DNA of 24,916 nt from a virus. The stretch is from the IMG/VR virus record IMGVR_UViG_3300047562_001282, positions 1-24,916 of that record; one strand, written 5' to 3'. Positions 18,448-24,916 of the stretch are shown here, piece after piece. Position numbers and translations under genes: made by a program. The notes beneath the pieces were generated by a model, which did not search any database, was not told the DNA's origin, and worked only from the letters and a program-made list of their open reading frames with translations. Every line of letters begins with the position of its first letter. Positions within the stretch are counted from its first letter, which is position 1.

Positions 18448-21400
18448 ATGAGTTTTCAGTTAAATTCTGACAGGGAACAACTTGTAGGCGTTGATTCTAC
18501 TATCATCGGTACTAGTTCGGTTCGTATTAGATCAGGAGCTGGGGAAGATCAAAGAGAGATTTTCCAAGCAAAAATCGACAACACATCTGGATTACCTCGT
18601 GTTGGTATTAACAGAACTGGAAGGCGAGTAGATTCTATCACGGTAACATCTGCTGGATTGGGGTATACAGATACTCCAACTATCAATATCAGTGCTCCTA
18701 CTTTACCTGGAGGTATTCAAGCAGTTGCTTCAGCTGTAACAGATTCCAATGGAAGAATTATTTCAATTGGTATTGATAATCAAGGTGATGGTTATGAATT
18801 TCCACCAACAGTAACTATAACTGGCGGAAATGGATCTGGTGCTGCTGCTACATCCGCTTTAGATACTATTGATTTCGAATTGGATGTTAATGGTGCTATC
18901 AGAACATCAACATCGATTATTTCTGATACAGCAAATATTTTAAATCTTGATATTGATAATCTTGTTACTCCAGATGTCAAGTATCGAGCAGCAGATTTTA
19001 AAACTTGGGCAAACGGAACTGGTGTAAGATTTCCTTCTTCACCAACACCAGTAAATAAAAATGATTATTTCTATGAAGGGTCCAATATTTACCAAGCATT
19101 AGATACTGGTATTACTGGACTAATACCACCTTTCCATGAAGATGGTATTGAATTAAATGGAGATGTTAGATTTAAACATATTGGATATAGAGTAAATTCT
19201 CCAGATCTTCCTTTCTTTGGCGAGAGTGGTGATTCTGGAATCTTCCCCCGTTCCATCACCCCTCTTCTCGGAGATAGATCGGATAAAGTTGCCACAACAG
19301 AATACGTTCTAAACTTAGCAACAAATGACGTTGGTGGACGTATCTATGTTTCTGAGCAAATTGGAGATGACGACAATGATGGTCGTTCACCAGTTAATCC
19401 AGTTAGAACAATTAAAAGAGCATGTCAGTTAGCATGGGAAACTCCTGGAGTTAAGGAGTCAATCATTATCGCTGGTGGTGAATATCTGGAAGATAACCCA
19501 ATTTCAATTCCACCAGATGCTTCTATTGTAGGCGATAACCTTCGTCTTGTAATTATCAGACCAGAAAATATTGGTAAACATATTTTTAAATTTGGTGATA
19601 AAAACTATGTTATTGGTGTAACTTATCAAGATAAAGTAAACTCATCAGGTGCTTCAGTTGGTACTTGGGACTTTGCTATGGTCTTTGACGATAAGCAAAG
19701 AATTATTTACGATAAAACTGCTAACGGAGATTTTGGAACCAATTTCACAATTGGTCACCAATTCTTTGGTCCAGATTCTTTCCAAGCACTATTTAGTTTT
19801 AACGATGCTGGATTAACGGCATTATCAGCTGGAATCACGATGTTTGGTGCTAACACTGGTACTACCGCCAGAGTTGGAACTGTAGAATTTGACATCAATG
19901 ATCCACAAAATCCAGATGCTTATAAAGAAGGTAGAATCACCGACTTAACTAGAGTCTCTGGTGCTGGTTTCCAAAACTCAGAAACTTTCTATTATGGCGG
20001 AACTGGCACGACTAAATGGGCGCCATCAACACAATACCAAATCGGAGACATTGTTTGGTCTGACGCTATATTACCAGGAGGTGCTTTAGTTGCTTATGTT
20101 TACACTGTAACCACTGCTGGTATTTCTGGAACAGTTCAGCCTACACATACATTTGGTATTGAACCAAATGGAACAGCGGCATTTGAATACACAAGACAAG
20201 CATACTCTGTAAACTTATCTCAAATCGAATCCACTAGAGCTGAAGGAGAGGTAGTATTTACAGGGGATGAATATGAAACTGTAAATCCTTTACCAATCAC
20301 GAGAATTGATTTTAGTCTACAAGGAACATTTAATGATGGATTCCAAAATGATATCTACGGAGATTCTGAAGATCTTGGTGGTATTGTATTCTATACAAAC
20401 CCATTAGAAGGTGCTAATAATATTCACGATTTTAAAGAAGGAGAAGAAATTGAAATTACTGGAATGCCATCAGCACCAGATGATCTTAGCTTCTTAAACG
20501 GTAAACATAGAATTTACAAAGTTATAGAAGATGCCGATGGTCGTGCTAGAAGATTTGTACTTCCAAAGAAACTTGATCCAGCATTAAATTTAAATGAAAT
20601 TGATGACTGGGATCCAGATTCTGTTGGAGCAGTTGTTAGTGTAAAAACTTATTCAAAATCTGTAACACTATCGTTACTAAACTCACCAAATAAGTTTCCT
20701 GTAGCTCAGCCTGTAGCAAGAAGATATCAAGATGCTTGCTTATTAATCAGAAATAATATTAATTATATTGCTGATGAAGTTGTTCGTAAAATTAACGACC
20801 AATTCAAAAAAGAATACTTTTCAGTATATGAAATCAGTGGAAATACTTTCAAAATCTATCTAGGAACTTCCAGATTTGCTCACAATTACGTAAATGGAGG
20901 AACAGTAAGATTTAACAACACTAACTATAGCATTACCAATTTCGAATATGATCATGATGGAACTGGTGAGGCGACTATTACCACAGCAACAAATGCTGGA
21001 CTATCTGAAGATGATACTGTAAAGCTATCTGGTATAGTAGTATCTTGCATCATCGATGGTGTAGTAACCGAGAAAACTTACCCAAGTTTCAACATTCCTG
21101 TTAGTGATCAAAAGTGTCGTAGAGATATTGGTCACTTCTTAAATGCTATTATTCAGGACTTAGAATTTGGCAGCAACTATAACACAATTAACGCTGCCAG
21201 AAAATATTTTGCTGCTGGTCAAGTTGAATACGTAGATTATGAAATTATCCAAACTGTTCGTGCTATTGAGTATGCTAGAGAACTAGCAATTTATGCTATG
21301 AGGAAGTGGCGTACTGGAAACGGTACGCCAGTAGATCCAGTATATGTTTCACAATACACAAGTTTAGATCAATATGTAGATCCAACTGTTATTGATGATC

Positions 21401-24400
21401 CAGCATCGCCTGCTTGTGCTAATGTAGCAAGTGCTATTAATACATTATCATATCTGTTTGTAGATATTATTTCCAATCAGGCTTCAGGAACTTATCTCGA
21501 TGGTGCCTATTTGATTGCTAGAAACAGAGATTTTATTGCTGATGAGGCATATCAATTAACCAAACAGCAATATCCTTCATTAGGATTAGATGATGTTGAT
21601 GAGAGAAAGTGCCGTAGAGATATTAATTACATCTTAAGCGGCGTTCTTAGAGACTTAGTTCTTGGCGGAAATGCTGGTTCCGTAAATGCCGCTGAGTTTT
21701 ATTTCCAAGGTACAACTTTAACTGGCGTCCCAGCTTCCGAACTTGGTGCTACTAGATTTGCTTTTACTAAGGTAAGAGATCTATCTATTTTAGCAATGAG
21801 GAATTGGTATCAAAGTGGTGGCGCTGGATCCCAATATACGCCACTATATTCTATTATTCCTCAGTTTACCGATAATACAATCCTCGTAGATCCAGCTGGA
21901 ACTCCTTGGTGTGCTGATGTCGAGGCATCGCTAACAACTTCATTCGAATTAATCGATGGCATTCTAGAATTTGCTGATGATAATACAAGTCCAACTGCTA
22001 TTCAGCCAGGATCAACAGTAAGAACAACAGGTACTCTTTATTCTGGAGATAATGTAATTTCATATCCAGATAACGTTCTTAGAGATGTTAACAATAACTT
22101 TGTAACTATTCGTGCTGTATATGACGATCTTCCAATTATTTCAGCATCTCCATACACACAAAATGCTTCAATTATTTCGAAACTTGGTGGTAGTGGTGCT
22201 CTGATTGATGGATCAAAAGTTAAAAATCCAAACTGCCCTTTCCCTGGTTTATCTGATGGCAGAGCAACATTTCCCAACCAGGGCAAGTCGATGGTTGCCT
22301 CGGCATTTACTATTGTTTCTGAGCAAAATGGTATTGGATATAAGATTATTGAAGATGGTTATGTACAGTTAGTTTCTGTATTCTGTATTTTCTGTGTTGA
22401 TGGCATTCTTGCTGAGTCTGGTGGATATGCCTCGGTTACCAACTCTGCCTCAAACTTTGGTACATACGCTTTAAGATCAAGAGGTTACAGACGAGAACCA
22501 TATGAGTTTGATTCTGGATACACAGCAACTGAAGGTTATCAACGTGCCTTTATTGATGTTGTCTCCGAAAGTATTACTCAGTTTACAGAATTTACTATTG
22601 ATAATATTGGAAGAATTCCTCTTGAGCATTATATTGTTAAGGTTGATGGATACGAATCTGCTGATCTTGATGACGAATACTTTATTGATAAAGTTGAAGT
22701 TCTCAGGGAAGGTCCTCCATATAGAGCAAGAATTACTGTAACAAGCGGTTCTGGAGCGGGTGTTATTCAACTTAGAAATAAATCGACGGGATTGTTAGCT
22801 TCTCCTGCAGAATTAACCAGCAAAAATATTGCATTACACAGACCATCCATCGTTAACTCATCTTCCCACACATGGGAATTTGTTGGATCTGGAGTTGATT
22901 ACAATGCTCTACCAGAAAACGGCGGACTTAAAATAGATAGCAATGAGCAAGTGTCGGAAGATTATGGTAGAACATATGTATCTGGTACTGACGAACTTGG
23001 TGACTTTAAGGTTGGTACGTTTGCTAAAATTGAAAACAGAACTGGCAACATTACCTTTACTGGTACAGTTTCGATTTCAGAAGTTGAGTTCCTCAAACTA
23101 AGGGGTGGTGATGTAGTTGTTACTGGATTTGACAACTCAAATACTCTCGGTGGTGCTCTATCATCTGACTCTAAATTACCGACACAAAAAGCGGTTAGAG
23201 ATTATATCATTAATAATTTGGGTCAGTATCTGAATAAAAACTATTCAACAAACCCTGTCCCAAGAGCTCTAGTAGAATTAACAGATGAGGGTAAAATTTC
23301 TGAAAGTCAATTGCCAGCTAGCAGTCCAATTGAAGTTTATAGCGTTGATACAGAGCAAGAAAGATTATCTTTAGAAGGTGTTAATGCTGGTGACATTGTA
23401 ATTGAATCTGGTGCTGCTTATATTTTAAACACAGATTCAGACTCTCTGTTCTTGGGTATTAATGTAGATTCTTCACTACAGTTTACTGTAAATGATATCT
23501 TCACAGGTAGCACCACTAATGGCAAAATTCAGTTAACTGAGTACAGACCTGGGGTTATTAAAACAATTACTGTCACGGATCCTGGATCTGGTTATTCAAC
23601 ATCAAATCCACCTACTGTAGTAATTAATGATAATGGTACACAAATAGGACACGTTCCAGCAGTAGCAAGAGCAATAGTTGCTGGGGGAGAAATTGTTGCT
23701 ATCGAACTAGTTCTTTCTGATAGCTACATCGGAGGTAAAGGATATTTAGGTACTCCAACAATTTCATTTACAAACACTAGCGGAGGAGCTGGAGCAACTG
23801 CCACAGTTTCTTTAGAAAGTAGACTCTATGGAGATATCGTTAATAATATTAAAATAGAAGCGATTGATACTATCCAATCAAGTGATGTCCCAGCAGAAAC
23901 TGTTGATGTTATTAGAGTAGTTAATACTTCTGGAAGTAATCCAAATAATTGGGTTTCTCTTAATACTCAAGCAGTTCAAGCTAATGCCATTGAGGGTGTT
24001 ATTGGAACAGGAAACCTCGCTGAAAATGCTACTCTAGAAGCAAACTCAAATACTGTTCTTTATGGAGATTCTTCCTACAAGAAAGTTGTAAAATCTTTCC
24101 GTGGAACCGAGACTAGATACTTCATCAAAACAGCAGAAGCAAGTGGTGCCGATTATCTAGTATTCGAATCAACTTCTAATAATCAAACTGGATTATTGTT
24201 GGAAGGACATTCGGTAACTAATGTCACTGGGGTACAAGCAGGAACCACAATCACCCAGATTGCCACGTTTACTGTTGGACAAACAACTTACAAAAGAGTT
24301 ACATTAAGTGATGGTCTAACTAGTTCTGTACCTGTAGGTACTGTTGTAGAATTTATTAGACCAGCATCGCCAGTTTTAATTGAATCCAATTTAAGAACTT

Positions 24401-24916
24401 CTGGAGCAATTGAGTCTGTTCAAATTGAAAATGGAGGATCTGGGTTTGCTGCCGATGAAGGCGGTAATTTCACATATTCCAATGTTGCTATTTCGGGTGG
24501 AGGAGGAACAGGATTAGAATTAACTATTACAGTTGCTGACGGAGTAGTAACTAATGTTGTTGTTGCTAATTCTGGTAAAAATTACCCCTCAGATTTTACT
24601 ATATCTCCACCAACAGAGATTGGAACTGGTGGTTCTGGATTAATCCTTAGAGCAAAACGTGCTCAAGTTGATAAGCAAGAAGGTGATATCGGTATTGATA
24701 TTGCTAGAGCAACATCAGATACTTTATCAGATGAAGAGTATGGTACGGTTGGTGTAGTAAGACTAAGAAAATCCCAGTTTGATGTTGGCCCAAATGGATC
24801 GGTAAGATTGTATACTGGGATTGATTCTGGTCTAGATGCCGATTTGTTAGATGGTAACCAAAGTGGATATTATAGAAATGCTGATAATATTAATCAAGGT
24901 AGATTAAAACCAGCAT
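18448..24916 (+). CDS. Very large tail-fibre-like protein, 3'-truncated by the window (at least 2156 aa)
   Basis: I translated the frame from the ATG at 18448 to the window end with no stop, so the gene continues beyond it. N-terminus: MSFQLNSDREQLVGVDSTII, then FQAKIDNTSGLPRVGINRTG, an anchor type seen in cyanophage fibres. Two GSGY-type beta modules follow (62-137), then KVATTEYVLNLA (279-290). Residues 306-325, GDDDNDGRSPVNPVRTIKRA, with IIIAGGEYLEDNPISIPPDA after them, look like the start of a DUF1565-type right-handed beta-helix. A duplicated helical Cys-containing module with KCRRDI spans 758-1173. KLPTQKAVRDYI (1576-1587) is a common phage-fibre motif. More GSGY modules lie at 1703-1790 and 1986-2070, and the visible end has a LLDG..SGYYRNADNIN motif, usual before fibre tips. 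The receptor-binding end is therefore outside the window. A host-contact role is inferred from the family type; sugar-degrading activity is not claimed. Confidence 0.87.
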   Translation, partial: MSFQLNSDREQLVGVDSTIIGTSSVRIRSGAGEDQREIFQAKIDNTSGLPRVGINRTGRRVDSITVTSAGLGYTDTPTINISAPTLPGGIQAVASAVTDSNGRIISIGIDNQGDGYEFPPTVTITGGNGSGAAATSALDTIDFELDVNGAIRTSTSIISDTANILNLDIDNLVTPDVKYRAADFKTWANGTGVRFPSSPTPVNKNDYFYEGSNIYQALDTGITGLIPPFHEDGIELNGDVRFKHIGYRVNSPDLPFFGESGDSGIFPRSITPLLGDRSDKVATTEYVLNLATNDVGGRIYVSEQIGDDDNDGRSPVNPVRTIKRACQLAWETPGVKESIIIAGGEYLEDNPISIPPDASIVGDNLRLVIIRPENIGKHIFKFGDKNYVIGVTYQDKVNSSGASVGTWDFAMVFDDKQRIIYDKTANGDFGTNFTIGHQFFGPDSFQALFSFNDAGLTALSAGITMFGANTGTTARVGTVEFDINDPQNPDAYKEGRITDLTRVSGAGFQNSETFYYGGTGTTKWAPSTQYQIGDIVWSDAILPGGALVAYVYTVTTAGISGTVQPTHTFGIEPNGTAAFEYTRQAYSVNLSQIESTRAEGEVVFTGDEYETVNPLPITRIDFSLQGTFNDGFQNDIYGDSEDLGGIVFYTNPLEGANNIHDFKEGEEIEITGMPSAPDDLSFLNGKHRIYKVIEDADGRARRFVLPKKLDPALNLNEIDDWDPDSVGAVVSVKTYSKSVTLSLLNSPNKFPVAQPVARRYQDACLLIRNNINYIADEVVRKINDQFKKEYFSVYEISGNTFKIYLGTSRFAHNYVNGGTVRFNNTNYSITNFEYDHDGTGEATITTATNAGLSEDDTVKLSGIVVSCIIDGVVTEKTYPSFNIPVSDQKCRRDIGHFLNAIIQDLEFGSNYNTINAARKYFAAGQVEYVDYEIIQTVRAIEYARELAIYAMRKWRTGNGTPVDPVYVSQYTSLDQYVDPTVIDDPASPACANVASAINTLSYLFVDIISNQASGTYLDGAYLIARNRDFIADEAYQLTKQQYPSLGLDDVDERKCRRDINYILSGVLRDLVLGGNAGSVNAAEFYFQGTTLTGVPASELGATRFAFTKVRDLSILAMRNWYQSGGAGSQYTPLYSIIPQFTDNTILVDPAGTPWCADVEASLTTSFELIDGILEFADDNTSPTAIQPGSTVRTTGTLYSGDNVISYPDNVLRDVNNNFVTIRAVYDDLPIISASPYTQNASIISKLGGSGALIDGSKVKNPNCPFPGLSDGRATFPNQGKSMVASAFTIVSEQNGIGYKIIEDGYVQLVSVFCIFCVDGILAESGGYASVTNSASNFGTYALRSRGYRREPYEFDSGYTATEGYQRAFIDVVSESITQFTEFTIDNIGRIPLEHYIVKVDGYESADLDDEYFIDKVEVLREGPPYRARITVTSGSGAGVIQLRNKSTGLLASPAELTSKNIALHRPSIVNSSSHTWEFVGSGVDYNALPENGGLKIDSNEQVSEDYGRTYVSGTDELGDFKVGTFAKIENRTGNITFTGTVSISEVEFLKLRGGDVVVTGFDNSNTLGGALSSDSKLPTQKAVRDYIINNLGQYLNKNYSTNPVPRALVELTDEGKISESQLPASSPIEVYSVDTEQERLSLEGVNAGDIVIESGAAYILNTDSDSLFLGINVDSSLQFTVNDIFTGSTTNGKIQLTEYRPGVIKTITVTDPGSGYSTSNPPTVVINDNGTQIGHVPAVARAIVAGGEIVAIELVLSDSYIGGKGYLGTPTISFTNTSGGAGATATVSLESRLYGDIVNNIKIEAIDTIQSSDVPAETVDVIRVVNTSGSNPNNWVSLNTQAVQANAIEGVIGTGNLAENATLEANSNTVLYGDSSYKKVVKSFRGTETRYFIKTAEASGADYLVFESTSNNQTGLLLEGHSVTNVTGVQAGTTITQIATFTVGQTTYKRVTLSDGLTSSVPVGTVVEFIRPASPVLIESNLRTSGAIESVQIENGGSGFAADEGGNFTYSNVAISGGGGTGLELTITVADGVVTNVVVANSGKNYPSDFTISPPTEIGTGGSGLILRAKRAQVDKQEGDIGIDIARATSDTLSDEEYGTVGVVRLRKSQFDVGPNGSVRLYTGIDSGLDADLLDGNQSGYYRNADNINQGRLKPA
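20719..21957 (+). repeat. Duplicated helical module with conserved cysteines in the second fibre
   Basis: Copy 1 has NNINYIADEVVRKI (from residue 769), KCRRDIGHFLNAIIQDLEFG (889-908) and SPACANVASAINTLSYLF (from 987). Copy 2 has NRDFIADEAYQL (from 1026), KCRRDINYILSGVLRDLVLG (1054-1073) and TPWCADVEASLTTSFELI (from 1152). The KCRRDI and second-Cys positions repeat at exactly 165 residues (C890/C1055, C990/C1155), while the IADE helices are 256 apart because copy 1 carries an extra beta-rich stretch of about 91 residues. Confidence 0.8.

Follow-up and report, generated by a model that had tools for sequence, protein, structure and literature searches.

Introduction

Phycobiliproteins (PF00502), among them phycocyanin alpha and phycoerythrin beta, are the best-known relatives of the domains considered here. 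A second group, the bilin biosynthesis-associated globins (BBAGs), comprises phycobiliprotein relatives of non-photosynthetic bacteria, and some of them carry CXRD, a chromophore-binding motif, assemble with bilin without a lyase and are encoded near heme oxygenase and bilin reductase genes (PMC10151467). T-type bilin lyases are described as specific for the β-153/155 attachment site (PMC2327270, PMC10452541). Cyanophages also possess bilin genes, and one survey notes of the role of pcyA/pebS in phages that it 'remains a mystery' and of cpeT that its role there 'remains unresolved' (PMC3037559). We found no description of phycobiliprotein-like domains in virion proteins in the open-licence literature. 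Here we analysed virus record IMGVR_UViG_3300047562_001282, whose entire 24,916 bases constitute the window and which comes from a T4-like cyanophage with S-RIM32 and S-H9-2 among its relatives. Its giant tail-fibre gene encodes two tandem modules that we propose, with a probability of roughly 0.55, to be phycobiliprotein-like (bilin-binding globin) domains lacking helices X and Y, with fixed cysteines at chromophore-attachment positions and with bilin uptake.

Two tandem modules in a cyanophage tail fibre

The fibre open reading frame (ORF) is a member of the cyanophage tail-fibre family phrog_5342 by a strong profile match (E 0, 3152 bits, in three stretches, the best covering residues 1130-2156). 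A PHROGs search of the whole fibre returned tail and virion families, and a Pfam scan of it gave nothing above cut-off. Its S-RIM32 counterpart, BJD26_gp148, is annotated 'tail fiber protein' and is located among T4-like baseplate and neck genes, a setting that recalls the long and short tail fibres of phage T4; T4 itself, however, has no module match at E<=0.001. By tblastn, a 432-residue region including the insert of copy 1 matched 338 named phage records, all of them named as Synechococcus, Prochlorococcus, 'Cyanophage' or, in one case, 'Marine' phage.

Window positions 20719-21957 correspond to fibre residues 758-1170, where the first-pass annotation had noted a helical repeat of 165 residues with fixed cysteines. 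The spacing proved exact for both Cys890/Cys1055 and Cys990/Cys1155, and the cysteines lie in the contexts claimed for them, QKCRRDIGH (890), PACANVA (990), RKCRRDINY (1055) and PWCADVE (1155). Copy 2 as the sole query retrieved copy 1 with 37% identity over 134 residues at E 8.6e-22, indicating that the repeat is not due to chance. Both copies also score highly against a module profile (2.3e-42 for copy 1 and 4.8e-50 for copy 2), both being among the rows from which it was built. Thus, homology search and predicted models agree that the two segments share fold and sequence, and the annotation's view of a helical module inside an otherwise mostly beta fibre is supported.

Relationship to phycobiliproteins

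The repeat was first read as an ordinary unnamed fibre repeat, a reading abandoned after the module profile matched phycobiliproteins in the PDB. Iterated hidden Markov model searches over 247 loci yielded 1146 domain matches, distributed among 228 ORFs with a maximum of 25 in one ORF. Some genome contigs contributed host phycobiliproteins to these matches, and those were excluded from the later viral counts. The profile was built from 96 divergent copies, none of which is by reference a cyanobacterial phycobiliprotein and three of which are rows from virus-like metagenome-assembled genomes (MAGs). Its best PDB match was phycocyanin alpha 2vjr (E 4e-7), and among the 60 of 126 matches listed it found phycobiliproteins or 8u0f throughout. 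The alignment runs through a conserved Asn, KC-x-RDI and GG, and KCRRDI aligns gap-free with the Cys84/Arg86/Asp87 helix of phycocyanin alpha. Pfam PF00502 (Phycobilisome) matched 26 of the 96 members at E<=0.01, with one unrelated family matched once, and hhalign of 93 viral copies against 30 host phycobiliproteins gave a probability of 95.6 at E 1.1e-8. Homology to the phycobiliprotein superfamily is therefore detectable at the sequence level by three routes (4e-7; 26/96; 1.1e-8). NCBIfam matches were weak and involved five phycobiliprotein models, each matched by 1-4 members, as well as ten unrelated models. The window region alone found 5aqd in the PDB at E 0.0019. Four PHROG families of tail-fibre or virion structural proteins (phrog_5342, phrog_701, phrog_4527 and phrog_18802) are matched by 91-96 of the 96 copies; they are, however, long whole-protein profiles that assign no function to this domain.

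The predicted structure points in the same direction. An AlphaFold2 (AF2) model of copy 2 reached a predicted local distance difference test (pLDDT) score of 93.8 and a predicted template-modelling (pTM) score of 0.90. With VIA-align, 49 of the 50 PDB entries listed were phycobiliprotein or phycobilisome chains (Z 15.8-17.8), the remaining one being 8u0f, a 'Bacterial fluorescent protein' that the module profile also matched. The best entry, 7ap5_BBB, superposed at 2.2 A over 143 residues (Z 17.8), placing model residues 1-160 on chain residues 33-183, and identity in these structural alignments was 13-19%. Because the matches begin at chain residue 33-36, the N-terminal helices X and Y appear to be absent from the module. 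Foldseek listed 50 rows, of which 48 were phycobiliprotein or phycobilisome chains and two were 8u0f (probability 1.00, best E 1.8e-3). The tandem model was less certain than that of copy 2 (pLDDT 78.1) and matched the same family at Z 15.1-17.1, with a root-mean-square deviation of 2.0-9.0 A, mainly over copy 2. In BFVD the same fold is predicted for S-PM2 and further cyanophage proteins. Judged from these predicted models, the modules almost certainly have the all-helical phycobiliprotein-like (bilin-binding globin) fold.

The resemblance extends to the residues that matter for pigment attachment. By alignment, KCRRDI is the C-x-R-D motif at the Cys84/β-Cys82 position, on the same helix as in phycobiliproteins, and the cysteine of A/WCA.V takes the β-Cys153/155 position: in a forced global alignment it falls at β-Cys153, and in the model it lies directly before the last helix. 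Seven columns are invariant within the aligned blocks of 30 phycobiliproteins. The modules retain C84 in 93/93, R86 in 81/93 and D87 in 93/93 copies, and A55 in 55/88; L92 is kept in 29/93 (mostly I, L or V), R93 in 1/93 and Y97 in 7/93. The viral modules thus differ from phycobiliproteins in lacking R93/Y97 and in matching from chain residue 33-36 onward, and also in being splittable by a beta domain and in sitting within giant virion proteins (open frames of 2,924-7,312 codons in named phages). By the same token, the window module is unlike a light-harvesting subunit of the phycobilisome, being one domain of a 2156-codon ORF with no X/Y match and belonging to a family in which R93 is all but gone.

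We considered whether such a surface could serve mimicry, with the modules binding host phycobilisome parts or lyases during assembly while remaining pigment-free. The likeness to host phycocyanin alpha fits this idea, as does the naming of the 338 matched records. Helices X/Y and R93, however, form part of the phycobiliprotein alpha/beta contact; the former are absent from the match and the latter is lost, and it is the pigment-binding triad that has been retained. Moreover, modules also occur in P-HM1 and P-HM2, phages recorded on Prochlorococcus MED4, from a genus described as having no phycobilisomes (PMC2984593). We regard mimicry as very improbable.

Conservation of the two cysteines

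C-x-R-D is preserved in full in 595 of the 726 unique viral copies, and both window copies read CRRD. The aspartate is present in 686/686 copies that have the cysteine versus 21/40 that do not. The conservation called for by the first-pass annotation was examined directly, and the module cysteines are kept in relatives: in the window alignment (where row counts include the window itself and near-identical contigs), 14 of the 15 rows covering Cys764 of copy 1 have Cys there, and counts for further positions are given in Table 1. In six phages with which the window groups by sequence (S-PM2, S-RIM32, S-RSM4, Syn1, P-HM1 and P-HM2) 32 of 44 copies retain CxRD, as do 46 of 47 in eight contigs without CpeT.

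Given that each module holds two conserved cysteines, the annotation had suggested a hinge, a binding head or a disulphide or metal site; in the last case the pair would lock a helical hinge. Both residues are near-fixed in close relatives, and 236 of the 403 unique copies covering both regions have the pair without a Cys at column 98, which would suit such a site. By contrast, the first Cys is found in 387 of these copies and the second in 305, and the first occurs without the second in 87 (another residue stands there in 81, a gap in 6), 59 of which have no further module Cys; in addition, the two correspond to different places of bilin attachment in the phycobiliprotein fold. We accordingly disfavour a disulphide or metal site, which seems very improbable. 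Hence, the shared fold, the conserved cysteines and the helical element of that earlier interpretation stand and its disulphide or metal site is not supported, while the kinship with phycobiliproteins had not been foreseen.

Some copies depart from the common pattern. Two viral proteins with seven module matches each show no CxRD cysteine in the copies listed and may be a bilin-free branch. In S-PM2, the first two module helices also occur as stand-alone copies about 42 residues apart beside full modules (fibre-frame residues 858-982), and such copies are found in S-RIM32, Syn1 and S-RSM4 too, as if half-modules repeat alone.

When 84,980 genomes of bacteria and archaea were scanned with a DNA pattern for KC[RS][RS]DIGY, 29 stretches matched: 14 have the sequence of phycocyanin-alpha-type genes, 3 are virus-like MAG fragments and 12 have no module match.

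Association with phage bilin genes

A module was detected in 15 of the 24 named phages searched, every one of them a T4-like cyanophage, and in none of P-SSM2, S-SM2, S-SSM7, two podoviruses, PSS2, HTVC008M, T4 or Ma-LMM01. CpeT, a T-type bilin lyase, is encoded by 13 of the 24, all 13 of them module-bearing, with the candidates of P-SSM7 and S-ShM2 below threshold and scored absent; among the 18 T4-like cyanophages the association has a Fisher p of 0.012. The threshold used here finds CpeT in 11 of what we take to be the same 16 phages as in an earlier survey. The count given there is cpeT in 12 of 16 cyanophages (PMC3037559). All six full-length cpeT genes (in S-RIM32, S-PM2, S-RSM4, Syn1 and contigs G007 and G016) have a module copy at 1.0-3.0 kb, as opposed to none of 13 weaker CpeT matches, which are all at least 34 kb from the module copies listed, a split between full-length and weaker genes that was chosen after the data were seen. 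The 'short tail fiber' gene of S-PM2, which bears modules, has CpeT 1.4 kb upstream.

Since T-type lyases act at the β-153/155 site, the type of lyase that these phages encode fits the second conserved cysteine. Across 31 records, 17/19 with CpeT show the second Cys, versus 3/12 without CpeT (Fisher p 0.0005). Nine of ten CpeT-negative contigs have no psbA/psbD match, and these contigs may simply be another virus group. We also considered an S-type lyase as partner of those viruses that keep the first cysteine only. PF09367 was found in none of 34 records and this candidate was rejected; S-type lyases are reported in other cyanophages (PMC10665884).

The genes for making bilin are distributed less regularly. 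Bilin reductase is encoded by 7 of the 24 named phages and heme oxygenase by 4, two of each set being module-free. All four, module, CpeT, reductase and oxygenase, occur together in P-HM1 and P-HM2. The gene pair near which some BBAGs are encoded, heme oxygenase plus bilin reductase, was detected in 3 of 15 module-bearing contigs (G009, G011 and G012, which have no psbA/psbD match). In co-occurrence scans of bilin reductase and module, covering the best 80 of 115 and 80 of 253 loci, only the two query contigs were noticed again by eye. That phage bilin genes serve the modules as a general rule was rejected, given the P-SSM2 and S-SSM7 genes without a module and the Cys-free modules of P-SSM4.

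By eye, the heme oxygenase and bilin reductase of G009 and G011 lie near ClpS-like and Hsp20-like genes. In G007, stops interrupt psbA-type and some module frames, perhaps a matter of assembly quality. In S-PM2 (NC_006820, 161000-178500), 16 tRNA genes are annotated inside the 'short tail fiber' coding sequence (CDS); ARAGORN found no tRNA in that CDS and nine upstream of it, which suggests a shifted annotation.

Bilin-bearing modules or structural repeats

We favour bilin-bearing modules because CXRD is a chromophore motif, BBAGs self-assemble with bilin and the phage lyase type fits the second cysteine; that the modules bind bilin is, in our estimate, an even proposition. BBAGs resemble the modules by description, and they differ in that they are not described as embedded in virion proteins (PMC10151467).

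A number of observations weigh against bilin binding. The KC pattern scan enriched Cys-bearing loci, and CxRD stands at 479/610 once the pattern-carrying copies are dropped. The motif of copy 1 is C-x-Q-D in 8 of 24 rows and C-x-E-D in one. In P-RSM4, P-SSM4, P-SSM7, S-SM1, S-SSM5, S-ShM2, Syn9, Syn19 and Syn33 CxRD is found in 3 of 28 copies, and seven of these nine phages encode CpeT; the three modules of P-SSM4 are without both cysteines even though CpeT and reductase are encoded, and P-RSM4 encodes CpeT with the second Cys in 0/3. P-SSM2 and S-SSM7 have oxygenase and reductase with no module detected, and, conversely, no phage reductase or oxygenase was found in S-RIM32, S-PM2, S-RSM4 or Syn1, which have CpeT and modules. 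The S-PM2 cpeT is held to raise host phycoerythrin (PMC2984593), a view that would account for CpeT without modules. The gene and cysteine associations ignore shared ancestry, the contigs are fragments whose loci cover part of their modules, and for G006, G008 and G017 the counts are of module matches listed. The window region alone is weak against PF00502 (E 0.15), and Foldseek with the copy 2 model gave no match at E<=0.001. Finally, we infer covalent bilin, the route of its attachment and a light-dependent role, and indeed every statement on function, from fold, motif and genomic association.

Several of these points suit a serious rival, namely that the module, although descended from a bilin-binding globin, no longer holds bilin and has become a structural repeat of the fibre, with Cys, Arg and Asp retained for reasons of packing or helix-capping. 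The nine phages with so few intact motifs, P-SSM4 included, carry their modules in the same type of giant structural gene, Cys-less modules exist in the two seven-module proteins, and P-SSM2 and S-SSM7 maintain bilin genes without detected modules. This explanation is harder to reconcile with the intact C-x-R-D of most unique copies, the dependence of Asp on Cys, the near loss of R93 and Y97 while the triad stays, the motif's persistence in contigs without CpeT, and the association of CpeT with modules. We consider a purely structural repeat credible, at somewhat below even odds.

If the modules do carry bilin, fibre chains made late in infection would most likely acquire a linear bilin through thioether linkage, its source being either the pool of the host or heme oxygenase and bilin reductase encoded by the phage. 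Linkage at the first cysteine could be spontaneous or mediated by host lyases, and that at the second could be made by the T-type lyase CpeT that many of these phages encode; the bilin-charged holoprotein would then be built into the tail. More tentatively, and with somewhat less than even confidence, some T4-like cyanophages (of the kind of the window's phage, S-PM2, S-RIM32, S-RSM4 and Syn1) and some large aquatic phages may have tails with covalent bilin, a virion-borne biliprotein array that the heme oxygenase, bilin reductases and T-type lyases of the phage would, at least in part, serve to charge and whose pigment may sense light or respond to it during adsorption. Adsorption is reported to depend on light in several marine cyanomyoviruses (PMC2984593), which is why we raise this link, as speculation. 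Phycobiliprotein-like virion modules would offer one common, testable hypothesis for phage bilin genes, cpeT and light-dependent adsorption in at least some phages, including the idea that some cyanophage tails carry bilin pigments. Even if pigment-free, the fold of a light-harvesting protein would serve here, in many copies, as a viral tail building block.

Organization of the fibre and the beta insert of copy 1

The features of the fibre are collected in Table 1. The first two helices of copy 1 are equivalent to the phycobiliprotein helices preceding the bilin-Cys helix, and are separated from the rest of the module by the insert. About 91 extra residues had been claimed for copy 1, and the count holds: Tyr760 to Cys890 spans 130 residues and Tyr1016 to Cys1055 spans 39, a difference of 91. 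In the tandem model the stretch from the second helix to the Cys helix forms eight strands, in agreement with the beta-rich nature ascribed to this segment.

Table 1. Positions of the tail-fibre gene, its two modules and their cysteines in the window
Feature	Position	Strand	Remarks
Giant cyanophage tail-fibre gene	18448..24915	+	2156 codons; 3' end open, past contig end
Copy 1, first two helices (residues 758-790)	20719..20817	+	profile columns 1-30, independent E-value (iE) 8.7e-5; model helices 19-29, 32-46
Beta-rich insert in loop before Cys helix (residues 791-877)	20818..21078	+	phrog_5342 4.5e-18, phrog_3442 1.3e-9
Copy 1, rest of phycobiliprotein-like module (residues 878-1010)	21079..21477	+	iE 2.3e-42 (copy in profile); copy 2 query 8.6e-22
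Copy 1 K-C-R-R-D (889-893)	21112..21126	+	aligned equivalent of bilin motif Cys84/Arg86/Asp87
Copy 1 Cys990	21415..21417	+	aligned equivalent of β-Cys153/155 bilin site; Cys in 24/24 covering rows
Copy 2, complete phycobiliprotein-like module (residues 1014-1173)	21487..21966	+	AF2 pLDDT 93.8; best VIA Z 17.8
Copy 2 K-C-R-R-D (1054-1058)	21607..21621	+	putative bilin-attachment motif; CxRD in 23/23 covering rows
Copy 2 Cys1155	21910..21912	+	aligned β-Cys153/155 equivalent, directly before last helix; Cys in 17/21 rows with a residue there

The insert carries a cysteine of its own, Cys867 (21046-21048), which is Cys in 24/24 covering alignment rows. The phycocyanin loop at the insert position exceeds that of the module profile by 8-10 residues. 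In nine alignment rows other sequence precedes the beta domain, and in records of that kind the profile puts the first helices about 425-470 residues upstream. Because the beta domain is preceded by other sequence in these rows, the insert appears to be a fibre domain in its own right, not a peculiarity of this copy. For the insert, a Pfam match to E1_FCCH at 0.021 falls short of cut-off.

A further repeat, of the form G-x-G-Y/F (e.g. DGGSGYTQPPKVVV and SAGLGYTDTPTINI), was seen by eye in five window genes. In the fibre it covers residues about 52-150, 1704-1792 and 1982-2047, where several different PHROG families match on top of it, and it also appears in the ORFs at 2, 2609, 4509 and 12774.

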